Source of the DNA: Elusimicrobiota bacterium
Lineage (GTDB): Bacteria > Elusimicrobiota > Elusimicrobia > Elusimicrobiales > UBA9959
DNA length: 64,000 nt
NCBI GenBank assembly: GCA_019135865.1
Contig: JAGVVD010000019.1
Span: forward strand, 62,001 to 126,000
Direction of reading: 5' to 3'
Part shown: in pieces, positions 8,210-56,554 of the stretch
Numbering within the stretch: the stretch's first letter is position 1
How the letters are laid out: the number at the start of each line of letters is the position of its first letter
Made by a program: the position numbers and the translations under genes
The notes under the pieces: model-generated
The model's input: the letters and a program-made list of their open reading frames with translations, nothing else
What the model was told of the DNA's origin: nothing
Database searches by the model: none

Positions 8210-9448
8210 ATGTTCGAACTCCTCGTCCTGGGCGCGGTCTTCCTGCTCATAGCCGTCAGACAGGTGGGCGGCTTCCGGCTGGAGATCTGGCAGGTCATGT
8301 GCGGCGGTGCGGCCGCGGTGCTGCTGGCCGGGCGGATAGGCCCGGCCGAGGCGCTCTCCGCCGTAGACGCTGACGTCATGCTCTTTCTCTTCGGGATGTT
8401 CGCGGCGGGGCAGGTGCTGGAACTGAGCGGCTGGCTGGCGCACGCCGAGTACGAGGTGTTCAAGCGGGCCGGAACGGAGCAGGGGCTGCTGCTGGTGCTG
8501 GTCTTTTTCATGGGCGCCGCCTCCGCGCTGCTAATGAACGACACGCTGGCCATAGCCGGCACTCCGGTAGTTCTGCTGCTGGCGCGCAAGCACGGCATAG
8601 CCCCCAAGGCCCTGCTGCTGGCGTTGGCCTTCTCGGTGACCGTCGGCAGCGTGATGAGCCCGATCGGCAATCCCCAGAATCTCCTTATAGCGGTGCGCGG
8701 CGGCGTGTCCGCGCCTTTCCTGACCTTCCTGAAATACCTGGCCCTGCCGACCCTGATAAATCTCTGGGCCGTTTTCCTGCTGGTCAGGTATTTCTACCCG
8801 GAGGAGTTCACGCTCTGCCCGCTACGCCACTCGCAGGAGCCGGTGCGCGACAGGGAACTGGCGCGGCTGGCCCGGGCCACGGTCTGGACGCTCTGCGCGG
8901 CGATAGCGGCCAAGATAGTGCTGGTCTCGCTGAACCCGGCCTGGGATTTCCGGCTGACCTGGATAGCGCTGGCCGCGGCCGCGCCGGGGCTGCTCTTCAG
9001 CCCGCGCCGCTTCGAAATACTGAAGAAGACCGACTGGAGCACGCTGGCTTTCTTCGCGGCGATGTTCGTGCTGATGAGGGCGGTGTGGAACACGGGCTTT
9101 TTCCAGGGGCTGATAGAGGCCAGCGGGGCCGACGTGACCGGGCTGGGGCCGATAATGGCCGTCAGCGCCGGGCTCAGCCAGCTCATCTCCAATGTGCCGC
9201 TGGTGGCGCTTTACCTGCCGCTGCTGGAGCACGCGGGGGCGGGGACGGAGTCCCTTATGGCCCTGGCCGCCGCTTCTACCGTCGCCGGGAATCTGCTGAT
9301 ACTGGGCGCGGCCAGCAATGTCATCGTCATACAGGCCGCCGAGAAGCGCGCCGGCGAGACCATAACCTTCCTCGAGTTCGCCCGCATAGGCGTCCCGCTC
9401 ACCGCCGTCAACCTCCTGGTCTACTGGCTCTTCCTCCGGTTCTCCTGA
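8210..9448 (+). CDS. ArsB/SLC13-type ion transporter
   Basis: An integral membrane protein of 412 residues with about 10-12 hydrophobic segments, in the ion-transporter superfamily that includes CitM, ArsB, NhaD and SLC13. Family-like features include LMNDTLAIAGTPVVLLLA (around 110-127) and SPIGNPQNLLIA (around 150-161), where the SPxGNPQN hairpin normally sits in the substrate site; a second half repeats this layout (LISNVPLVALYLP, ILGAASNVIVIQ). The substrate could be an anion (arsenite, dicarboxylate, sulfate) or Na+/H+. It starts 12 bases after the cyclase gene without an obvious ribosome site. Confidence 0.85.
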   Translation: MFELLVLGAVFLLIAVRQVGGFRLEIWQVMCGGAAAVLLAGRIGPAEALSAVDADVMLFLFGMFAAGQVLELSGWLAHAEYEVFKRAGTEQGLLLVLVFFMGAASALLMNDTLAIAGTPVVLLLARKHGIAPKALLLALAFSVTVGSVMSPIGNPQNLLIAVRGGVSAPFLTFLKYLALPTLINLWAVFLLVRYFYPEEFTLCPLRHSQEPVRDRELARLARATVWTLCAAIAAKIVLVSLNPAWDFRLTWIALAAAAPGLLFSPRRFEILKKTDWSTLAFFAAMFVLMRAVWNTGFFQGLIEASGADVTGLGPIMAVSAGLSQLISNVPLVALYLPLLEHAGAGTESLMALAAASTVAGNLLILGAASNVIVIQAAEKRAGETITFLEFARIGVPLTAVNLLVYWLFLRFS

Positions 9449-9464
9449 CGTAAGGAAAACTATT

Positions 9465-9600
9465 CGGGGGCATGGCAGGGGGCCGGCCCGCAAAACACGC
9501 GGTCTCGCGCATAGCGCTCGCCGCTCCTCACTCGGCCTCCGCGCTTGCGATGCTCCGGCCTCCGTGAAGGTTTTGCCGCGCCGGCCCCCTGCCTCCCCCG
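9465..9600. repeat. Long imperfect inverted repeat (hairpin)
   Basis: The arm at 9465-9495 (core gcagggggccggc) pairs with 9571-9600 (core gccggccccctgc). The core of 13 pairs is perfect and pairing extends outward through cggggg/cccccg and inward through caaaa/ttttg with small mismatches. The loop is about 75 bases. Confidence 0.7.
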
Positions 9601-9747
9601 GCTGTCTCCTTATGGGGCGCTGAACGGGGACGGCTCCCGCGCCGTGCCTTCCGAAGCCACATGAGGAGCCGTCGCCCCGAGCGGAGCGCGGGTACCGGCA
9701 CTGCCGGACGACCGAGAATGTCTGAGCCCGGAGCGCTATGCGCGAGA
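9503..9747. repeat. Perfect 17-base inverted repeat, long range
   Basis: tctcgcgcatagcgctc at 9503-9519 is the exact reverse complement of 9731-9747. The left copy lies in the loop of the 9465-9600 hairpin and the right copy lies outside it, so simultaneous pairing would form a pseudoknot. Confidence 0.7.
9626..9678. repeat. Short hairpin with bulge
   Basis: ggggacggctcc at 9626-9637 pairs with ggagccgtcgcccc at 9665-9678 with a two-base bulge. It lies between the long hairpin and the right copy of the 17-base repeat. Confidence 0.5.
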
Positions 9748-9786
9748 GCCTGTGGCGTTTTTTCGTGGTGAGCCGCCCCCGGTGTC

Positions 9787-9802
9787 TGTAATAGTTGTTA
9801 CA
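9787..9802. promoter_or_regulatory. CRP/FNR-type dyad TGTAA-N6-TTACA
   Basis: A perfect 5+5 dyad with a 6-base spacer lies 35 bases before the XdhC start at 9838. The TGTNA-N6-TNACA layout is the usual half-site pattern for CRP/FNR-family regulators. Which regulator binds it, if any, is inference. Confidence 0.45.
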
Positions 9803-9837
9803 AAGGGGGCCGGGGCGCGCGGAATTTATGTAAAATC

Positions 9838-10674
9838 ATGCTTAATATGAAAGAGTCCAAGAATTTGATCAAAATGCTTTCCGAGGCCATAGATTCCGGG
9901 CGCGGCGCGGCTTTCGTCACCGTAATAAGCGTCGCCGGCTCCACCCCGCGCGAGGCCGGCGCCAGGATGCTGGTCTATTCCGACGGCTCCATAGAGGGCA
10001 CGGTCGGCGGCGGCAGCGTCGAGTCGCTGGTCATAAAGAAAGCCGTCGAATGCATCGCCAAAGGCGACGGCGGCAAGTTCTCCTTCGGCCTCAAGCCCGG
10101 CGGCAATACCGGCATGATCTGCATGGGCGACATGGAAGTCTTCATCGACGTCTACAAGAACCCTTTCAAGGTCCTGATACTCGGCGCCGGCCATGTCGGG
10201 ATGAAGATAGCCGAGGCCTGCCGCATGGCCGGCTACCCGTACCTCGTCGCCGACGACCGCAAGGAGTTCGCCAATCCGGAGAGGTTTCCCGAGGCGCTCG
10301 CTATAATCAATGAGCAGCCGCATAAGGCCGTCGCCTCCGCCGGCGTGGACAAGGACACCTACGCCGTCATAGTGACGCGCGGCCATTCGCTGGACAGGGA
10401 ATGCCTCGAGGCCCTGATACCGACCGGGGCGGCCTATATCGGCATGATAGGCAGCGCCGGCAAGGTCATGGAGATCTTCCGCCAGCTCGGGAAGAAAGAT
10501 CTTTTCCCGCTCAAGGACCCGCGCGTCCATTCCCCGATAGGCCTCAACCTCGGCGGCAAGGCCCCGGGCGAGATAGCCGTCTCGGTGCTGGCCGAGATCA
10601 TAAAAGTCCACTACAAGCGCGACGGCTCCCATATGCGCGACGCCGCCAGGAAGAAGACCCCCGCCAAAAAGTGA
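9838..10674 (+). CDS. xdhC: XdhC/CoxI family molybdenum hydroxylase maturation factor
   Basis: XdhC proteins bind the molybdenum cofactor, promote insertion of its terminal sulfur and hand it to xanthine dehydrogenase-type enzymes. The N-terminal domain shows VISVAGSTPREAGARMLV and GTVGGGSVES (about 25-65), and the C-terminal domain a Rossmann motif ILGAGHVGMKIAEACRMAGY (about 114-133). At 278 residues it has the usual two-domain length. ATGs at 9838 and 9847 are both possible; a TAAAAT box ends at 9836, so the second ATG with a near-absent leader is plausible. It is the first gene of the hydroxylase operon. Confidence 0.9.
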   Translation: MLNMKESKNLIKMLSEAIDSGRGAAFVTVISVAGSTPREAGARMLVYSDGSIEGTVGGGSVESLVIKKAVECIAKGDGGKFSFGLKPGGNTGMICMGDMEVFIDVYKNPFKVLILGAGHVGMKIAEACRMAGYPYLVADDRKEFANPERFPEALAIINEQPHKAVASAGVDKDTYAVIVTRGHSLDRECLEALIPTGAAYIGMIGSAGKVMEIFRQLGKKDLFPLKDPRVHSPIGLNLGGKAPGEIAVSVLAEIIKVHYKRDGSHMRDAARKKTPAKK

Positions 10675-54533: not shown

Positions 54534-56554
54534 ATAAAAAGACCGTTTTGCCGGCCCTTCTGCTTGCCGCCGCGCTGCCTTTGTGCGCGCAGCAGCAACC
54601 TCCCGTATTGGACACGGAGTTCGGCGTTAAACCGTTCAGTATGGACGTTCCGGGGCAGGAGGCCGATGTCCTGGTGTCGGTGGCACGGTCGGCCGACGGG
54701 GCTTTTTATGTGGCCGGAGAGAATACGCTCACCAGGCTGGACTCCGCGGGCAACAGGCTTTGGAGCCGGTACTATCTTCCCTATGACGATCCATACGCTT
54801 TCGCGCAGGGGAGTATCTCTACGGATGGCGGGAACAACGTTTATGTCGGGCTGGTAGCGCTGTCCGAGGGTTACGCGCATATCCTGAAATACGGCCCGGA
54901 CGGTACATTGCTGAAGGACCATACCTGGCCGGCGCAGAACGCGGCTGTCTACGGGACGGCGCTTAATGAGAGCGCCGGCAGATTGTACGCGGTCTTCCTG
55001 GACGATTCGCTGCGTATCGCGATGCTGGACGCGGACCTGAACCTTCTAAACAGCGTGTCTTACGACGCCTCCGCCATTGTCCCCGCGCCGGGAGTGGGGA
55101 TGGATAAAGAGGGGAACATCTATGCCGGGGGCTGGGTATATCCCGGGCAGAATGAATATTTCGCGGTCAAGTATAGTCCGGAACTGGCGCCGCTATTCGA
55201 GTTCTTCGAACCCGCCGGCCCCGCCGGGAGCGAATTCGGGATACTGGACGCATATGGGACAGGCGTTCATGCGGGCGGATTCTACCTTAGCGCCTGGGAA
55301 TATGAAGCCGGCGGGGATGGCTCTAATCATACGGGGATCGTGAATATTTCAAGTTCCGGGACTAAAAACTGGGAGAGTATTTTCGCCGCGCCGCTCGTGG
55401 AGTACTTCCCGTCCGGTACGGATAATGCCGGCGATTTCTATGGCGCCGGCTATGCGGAAGACTGGACGCCGCAGTTGACGAAGATCGGCTACGATACCGG
55501 CGACCCGGTATGGAGCATGCCGGAGCCCCATTCCGGCTGGATAGGCGGCGTAATAGCCGGCGTCGGGAACGCGCTATACACGGCGGGGGAACTGATGGAA
55601 AGTTCCGGGACCGAGTATTACTATATCGCCCGCTATACGCTGGGAGGGGATGCGCTCGCTCCCGCCGCTGTCACGGACCTGGCGGCGGCGGCCGTCTCCA
55701 GCGCCAGCGTGACGCTCGCCTGGACGGCTCCGGGCGACGACGGGACGTCCGGCACGGCCGCTGCCTATGACCTGCGTTATACCACCGCGGGCCCGATACT
55801 TGAGGACGCCGCTTTCGGTTCCGCCGCGGCGGTGCCGGGCGTTCCCGCGCCGCAGGCGGCAGGCACCCCGGAGACCTTCGCTGTCAAAGGTCTTCTTCCC
55901 GCGACGACTTATTACTTCGCCATAAAGGCCGCCGACGAAGCGGGGAACGTCTCTGAACTTTCAAATTCGCTTACTGCTGTAACCTCAGCCGAGCCCTCCA
56001 CATGCGTGGAAGTTACCGGCGTGCCGAATTGGAAACAGTTCAACGACGGGACAAACACCTGGTGGGATGACATATATGACCATACTGCCTCAAGAATGAC
56101 GGCTCTGGGGTGTCTTTTGACTGCAGCCGCCCAGGTCGTGAAAAAGCATGGTTACGATACGACCCCGGGTGAACTGAACGCAAAGCTTATCGACACGCCT
56201 GGGGGATTTGAGGGTAAATCCGTGCATCTGCCCGCAATGGTCGACGCGATAACAACGAGTGGCGTTAGCGTACTGTATAGGAAAACAACTGGGACAGATG
56301 CGCAGATAAACTCGTTGTTAGAGATGGAACTAAAGGCTGGGAATCCTGTTATCCTGGAGCTGTATAGCATAGCCAGAGCGGGGCGAACACATTTTGTCGT
56401 GGCCACAAGAAAATGTGGGGATACGGTCTATATAAACGATCCTGGGAATAATAATGAGAGAGTGTCAACCCTGAAGAATTATTTCGATTTGATATTCAAT
56501 GGGAACCCCAAAAAAATTGTCAGTGTTAGAATGATTACCAAAGGAACTATATGA
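54530..56554 (+). CDS. Exported propeller-Fn3-C39-like cysteine peptidase
   Basis: A 674-residue protein with a signal peptide (about 1-22). Residues about 50-370 hold PQQ/beta-propeller-like repeats, and about 375-480 a fibronectin type III domain (LAPAAVTDLAAAAV...ASVTLAWTAPGDDG). The C-terminal domain (about 490-674) resembles a C39-like papain-fold peptidase: MTALGCLLTAAAQVVKKHG with Cys528, THFVVATRKC with His621 and YINDPG with Asp637. The peptidase half is distinctly lower in GC than the rest. Coupled by overlaps to both neighbours. The peptidase call rests on motif pattern. Confidence 0.78.
   Translation: MNKKTVLPALLLAAALPLCAQQQPPVLDTEFGVKPFSMDVPGQEADVLVSVARSADGAFYVAGENTLTRLDSAGNRLWSRYYLPYDDPYAFAQGSISTDGGNNVYVGLVALSEGYAHILKYGPDGTLLKDHTWPAQNAAVYGTALNESAGRLYAVFLDDSLRIAMLDADLNLLNSVSYDASAIVPAPGVGMDKEGNIYAGGWVYPGQNEYFAVKYSPELAPLFEFFEPAGPAGSEFGILDAYGTGVHAGGFYLSAWEYEAGGDGSNHTGIVNISSSGTKNWESIFAAPLVEYFPSGTDNAGDFYGAGYAEDWTPQLTKIGYDTGDPVWSMPEPHSGWIGGVIAGVGNALYTAGELMESSGTEYYYIARYTLGGDALAPAAVTDLAAAAVSSASVTLAWTAPGDDGTSGTAAAYDLRYTTAGPILEDAAFGSAAAVPGVPAPQAAGTPETFAVKGLLPATTYYFAIKAADEAGNVSELSNSLTAVTSAEPSTCVEVTGVPNWKQFNDGTNTWWDDIYDHTASRMTALGCLLTAAAQVVKKHGYDTTPGELNAKLIDTPGGFEGKSVHLPAMVDAITTSGVSVLYRKTTGTDAQINSLLEMELKAGNPVILELYSIARAGRTHFVVATRKCGDTVYINDPGNNNERVSTLKNYFDLIFNGNPKKIVSVRMITKGTI

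Follow-up and report, generated by a model that had tools for sequence, protein, structure and literature searches.

A decayed copy of a large palindromic repeat, probably mobile, in the gap between a permease and an XdhC-like gene of an Elusimicrobiota bacterium

The 389 bases between a permease gene and an XdhC-like gene (9449–9837 of the window, the whole 64,000-nucleotide stretch of DNA analysed here) are rich in hairpins. Do they encode an RNA, or are they a repeat? An earlier note on this DNA had offered both answers: a structured regulatory RNA ahead of a molybdenum hydroxylase operon, with a pairing compatible with a pseudoknot, or a non-autonomous dispersed repeat. The pairings that it described are all present at the positions given, and they exceed chance in Markov simulations and fold z-scores. 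The long hairpin (reported as 9465–9495 with 9571–9600) was recovered as 9474–9495 with 9572–9593 (86 per cent, plus outer pairs), the 17-base inverted pair (9503–9519 with 9731–9747) is perfect, and the third hairpin is found at 9626–9676. An exact inverted pair of at least 17 bases arose in one of 300 simulations, and the fold z-scores were −5.8 for 9450–9612 (as RNA) and −3.0 for 9450–9801 (as DNA). The hairpins are real. The element is longer than had been described, reaching from about 9450 to 9801, and is bounded on both sides by inverted-repeat ends (Table 1). The gap had also been said to have no T-run, but there is one of six bases (9758–9763). No terminator-like site (a stem followed directly by a T-run) was found in the window copy, for which we rejected a canonical intrinsic terminator.

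Table 1. Features of the permease–XdhC-like gap and its flanking genes, in window coordinates.
Feature	Position	Strand	Basis or remark
Permease gene	8210–9448		Upstream of gap
Whole repeat copy	9450–9801	.	Covariance model match; alignment to other copies and G001 orthologue
Left inverted-repeat end (GTAAGGAAAACTATTCGGGGGCATG)	9450–9474	+	Consensus of other copies TAAGGAATAACTATTCCGGGGGCATG
Hairpin A, family core unit, three-way-junction hairpin	9450–9612	+	R1 covariance match, 176.7 bits; covariation
A stem, left arm, copy-variable	9474–9495	+	Pairs with 9572–9593
Left 17-mer, apical hairpin of A with GCGC-ATA-GCGC	9503–9519	+	
A stem, right arm	9572–9593	+	Pairs with 9474–9495
Hairpin B, left part only	9613–9745	+	Comparison with orthologue L139
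Side hairpin of module B (third hairpin of the earlier note)	9626–9676	+	
Right 17-mer, apical hairpin of B	9731–9747	+	Last two bases past deletion junction 9745/9746
T6 run within remnant of inverted A-type arm (GCGTTTTTTCGTGGTGAG)	9758–9763	+	Not a canonical terminator
Right inverted-repeat end (GCCGCCCCCGGTGTCTGTAATAGTTGTTAC)	9772–9801	−	Reverse complement resembles left end; compared with ends of other copies
XdhC-like gene	9838–10674		Downstream of gap

The interval 9450–9801 is made up of hairpin A, a truncated hairpin B and what is left of a third hairpin, of A type and inverted. It begins with GTAAGGAAAACTATTCGGGGGCATG immediately 3′ of the permease TGA (genes were called with a codon model trained on the 64-kb window, so that single gene–element distances are approximate), and its right end is an imperfect inverted version of this left end. 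In the sister species G001, the orthologue (locus L062/L139; named record L080, isolate Ess09-09) retains the right arm of B, about 82 nt that are deleted from the window copy, and has lost the interior of A.

This comparison also bears on the supposed pseudoknot. The 17-base pairing joins the apical loops (GCGC-ATA-GCGC) of the two hairpins A and B. Among the twelve copies that have both modules these loops share more than eight complementary bases only in the window copy (17) and at L002 (12). The G001 orthologue has lost the left hairpin, and its right hairpin is paired locally. The pairing is a motif common to two hairpins that was lengthened across a deletion junction, and a pseudoknot RNA was rejected. 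The perfect pairing and the location upstream of the XdhC-like gene are what would speak for a pseudoknotted regulatory RNA of the molybdenum-hydroxylase operon, but with the pairing absent from ten of the twelve copies and from the orthologue, and with dispersed copies lying behind unrelated genes and having stems in which G.T is not in excess of A.C, we consider that reading extremely improbable. A search of Rfam returned no match above the gathering score (the best scored 18.6 bits, where the gathering score is 58.7).

The second suggestion of the note, a non-autonomous dispersed repeat, held up, with many copies per genome, empty sites and inverted ends. In the bacterium's own genome, blast gave 45 matches for the window copy and 52 when a more complete copy served as query. 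A covariance model of the core hairpin found 53 matches there and 86 in a relative (G024); within a single family of Elusimicrobia, a genome holds about 50–90 copies. Among 248 genomes of the phylum searched with the covariance model, the repeat is present in 28, all from this family (f1) and representing six genera; none of the remaining genomes had it. One further pattern match within the window, at 55113, was taken as chance, being in apparent coding sequence and without a hairpin. At 9450–9801 the window holds a decayed copy of a dispersed Elusimicrobia repeat that appears to be mobile. The copies together are probably best described as a family of palindromic repeats, mobile but non-autonomous, that is restricted to a single family of Elusimicrobiota.

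Copies are assembled from hairpin modules; the core unit, a branched hairpin, measures about 120–220 nt. Module A (9450–9612 in the window) is a nearly fully paired branched hairpin that is also found alone. In many copies of genus g1 it is followed by module B, and at their far end copies carry another A-type hairpin, inverted and either whole or reduced to a remnant. The repeat occurs as singletons and as inverted doublets: in two genomes, all 20 of the 20 pairs of neighbours within 400 nt were (+,−) inverted doublets with a spacing of 16–49 nt, and in the three doublets that were folded the two halves are able to pair with each other. One such inverted doublet of the same repeat family lies upstream of the XdhC-like gene of GWF2_62_30 (L086:2966-3273), in the same gap as the window copy. 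At two loci (L114 and L128; C31:9778-9997 and C9:27909-28159), a truncated A-type hairpin runs straight into a complete one that has a TIR of its own, and one copy appears to have cut into another.

We compared copies of the own genome with orthologous sites in two sister species. Seven of the occupied sites (L134, L010, L018, L013, L017, L016 and L109) are empty in G001 and/or G002, often with the stop codon leading directly to a terminator; the L017 site is empty in G002 and holds a remnant in G001. At L126 the three species show three different states at one site, and at L003 similar outer ends enclose an unrelated interior. Where both species are occupied, the module type can differ (e.g. 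L002, L006, L029, L015, L027 and L011). Remnants are visible at L209 and L139, so part of the absences may be deletions. Taken together, the empty sites and the exchange of modules suggest that the repeat moves and turns over, mobility being read here from presence and absence.

None of the seven empty-site comparisons revealed an evident target-site duplication, which is a weak result given the degenerate boundaries. The note had considered scattered copies with target duplications as the sign of a mobile repeat; the dispersed copies were found, the duplications were not seen. This bears on whether the repeat is an ordinary DDE-type MITE, in which a cut-and-paste transposase would recognise the ends TAAGGAATAACTATTCCGGGGG and the internal hairpins would be passengers. 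The inverted-repeat ends common to many g1 copies and the insertion polymorphism are as expected of a MITE, but the g1 ends are not retained in other genera, where outer stems are copy-specific. With no target duplications seen and the folded core as the conserved part, we judge this quite improbable.

The position of the copies relative to genes is strongly patterned. Of 25 copies in the own genome, 21 have a left-hand gene pointing into them, and none lies between divergent genes. In other genera, at least one gene runs into 59 of 60 copies, one of the 60 lies between divergent genes, and the median distance to the stop codon is about 5 nt. Orientation relative to the genes is even in those genera (23 versus 20). 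At L002, L006, L018 and L109 a stop codon precedes the copy and a separate intrinsic terminator follows it; at L134 the copy comes after such a terminator.

Covariation in the stems, which the note had proposed to look for in relatives, is very strong, but in this case it belongs to a mobile palindrome of DNA. Across fifteen A hairpins of the own genome, 98.5 per cent of 660 pair cells are standard pairs, compared with 41–54 per cent when the structure is slid. Both sides have changed in 23 of 44 pairs, with one-sided intermediates rare, although these changed-pair counts are not independent events, many copies being related by descent. In other genera the core is conserved and the inner 10-bp stem is nearly unique to each copy (36 distinct stems in 39 copies), with 377 of 390 pairs Watson–Crick, four G.T and four A.C. 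Further stem counts gave 17 G.T versus 16 A.C and 28 versus 41, the balance in each case being drawn from few mismatches. In an RNA under selection, G-U is expected to be far better tolerated than A-C. The equal standing of G.T and A.C therefore argues for a palindrome maintained at the DNA level, and the stem balance without RNA strand bias points to a DNA hairpin, not an RNA.

These results weigh on the main RNA alternative, a 3′-UTR element whose hairpins, once transcribed, would stabilise the 3′ ends of mRNAs or halt transcription arriving from either side, with host selection keeping structure and position. Such an element would fit the location of copies immediately 3′ of stop codons, the very stable folds, the conserved core with complementary stems, and the filling of the same gap in a sister species and another genus. 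It fits poorly with stems lacking a G.T excess, even orientation to genes in other genera, separate intrinsic terminators after or before copies, clean empty sites in sister species and a window copy without a terminator-like site. We regard it as unlikely.

Stems also carry positional signals. In other genera, 38 of 39 copies preserve a C-G pair at position 12 of the stem, between positions 11 and 13 that are often mismatched. Correction of one arm from the other alone would erase these mismatches, which suggests that shape is recognised to some degree. That stems are copied from the target at insertion is unlikely, since they share a positional consensus (GG-CC-x-GGGG, with C at 12).

For a mobile palindromic repeat, we propose that copying would proceed via a folded single-stranded (or cruciform) DNA form, and that a host or mobile enzyme would recognise shape (stem length, conserved mismatches and core) and not stem sequence. 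Active copies would therefore keep their stems complementary. Resident copies would decay through hairpin deletion and recombination with other copies, and insertions would survive only behind genes, where harm is least. A mobile DNA element known mainly by its large branched-hairpin shape (stem length, and conserved mismatches at one helical turn from a conserved core), each copy with its own stem sequence, spread by an enzyme specific to one Elusimicrobiota family and targeted to gene ends, is a tentative and somewhat doubtful possibility.

We searched for such an enzyme, and no transposase or recombinase could be linked to the repeat. Of 59 genomes of the family, 49 carry RAYT-like Y1_Tnp genes, some of these genomes being element-negative, and the element was near only one of the 28 Y1_Tnp loci examined. 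Five element-positive genomes (G051, G048, G252, G239 and G042; 90–93 per cent complete) gave no Y1_Tnp match. With the own Y1_Tnp genes located elsewhere and 27 of the 28 loci without the element, mobilisation by RAYT was rejected. A scan of the own genome for the TIR pattern found no transposase between ends in the subset of loci read from this fragmented assembly. At L218:2254-2487 (G000:C44), a RAYT-like Y1_Tnp gene adjoins an unrelated palindrome, GGGGACACAATACCTATTTCGGTCGAAATAGGTATTGTGTCCCC (GGGGACACAATACC...), which is a second, separate REP-like family in the own genome.

Among known systems, REPINs and BIMEs (PMC3116915, PMC2817692) are similar in being dispersed extragenic palindromes, mostly downstream of genes, that form inverted doublets with short spacers, with singletons that resemble remnants and a plausible ssDNA hairpin form. 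REP and REPIN units are 20–40 bp, whereas the Elusimicrobia unit is branched and about 120–220 nt; it has no GTAG tag, its stems vary within the family, and it has no RAYT link. The tag of REPs and REPINs, GTAG or CGTC, stands at the unit end; in Elusimicrobia a CGTC-like motif is confined to other genera, where it lies within the hairpin. CGTC-tagged REPs (PMC3733652) have stems of 8–9 bp and loops of 4–5 nt, lie mostly downstream of genes, form head-to-head dimers and, like the present repeat, have no known dedicated transposase. In other Elusimicrobia genera, CCA-like and CGTC motifs flank the inner stem, a likeness that may be coincidence: they lie inside a longer hairpin, CCA 5′ and CGTC 3′ of the stem, and g1 has no CGTC.

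Correia, ERIC, RU, BOX and RUP elements (PMC2229807, PMC10969869, PMC2759123) are likewise non-autonomous and intergenic, about 100–300 bp, with inverted-repeat ends and folding potential; stem replacement that preserves complementarity, and module exchange at orthologous sites, may set the present repeat apart. The variable stem and conserved extrahelical positions may also be likened to an integron attC site. We found no literature on such repeats in Elusimicrobia in open-access text. The repeat works like a REPIN or a MITE yet lacks membership features of each; it is an unusually large, new kind of REP/REPIN/MITE-like repeat, several times bigger than small REPs.

As a REP-like family that greatly exceeds the classic ones in size and in intricacy of folding, the repeat is of wider use in two respects. 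Its free stem variation, near-perfect pairing and lack of strand bias separate DNA-level from RNA-level covariation, in a case where a covariance screen alone would have labelled the repeat a new regulatory RNA. Its core hairpin, inverted doublets, stop-codon-adjacent sites and orthologous turnover make it a test system for structure-guided mobility without an obvious transposase.

Several individual loci deserve mention. Five contigs (C22, C11, C54, C3 and C12, with ends at L023, L024, L028, L030 and L163) end at the same sequence of about 105 nt (AAAAAGCTTGTATAACCAGG...), which abuts module B at an identical point, CTTTTT|CCCCGAG. It resembles the terminus of a multi-copy IS that inserts site-specifically into the repeat; the body of this IS was not found in the own assembly or in G001/G002. 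In L220–L279, from other genera, the inner stem commonly has (G)CCA on its left and CGTC on its right, which recalls the CGTC-tagged REPs with the order reversed. Finally, the copy at L014 (C43:130138-130740) carries extra nested hairpins within the loop of B, and the arms of its B stem are swapped, with GACCAAGAA opposite TTCGTGCCC, so that arms of different subtypes have recombined.
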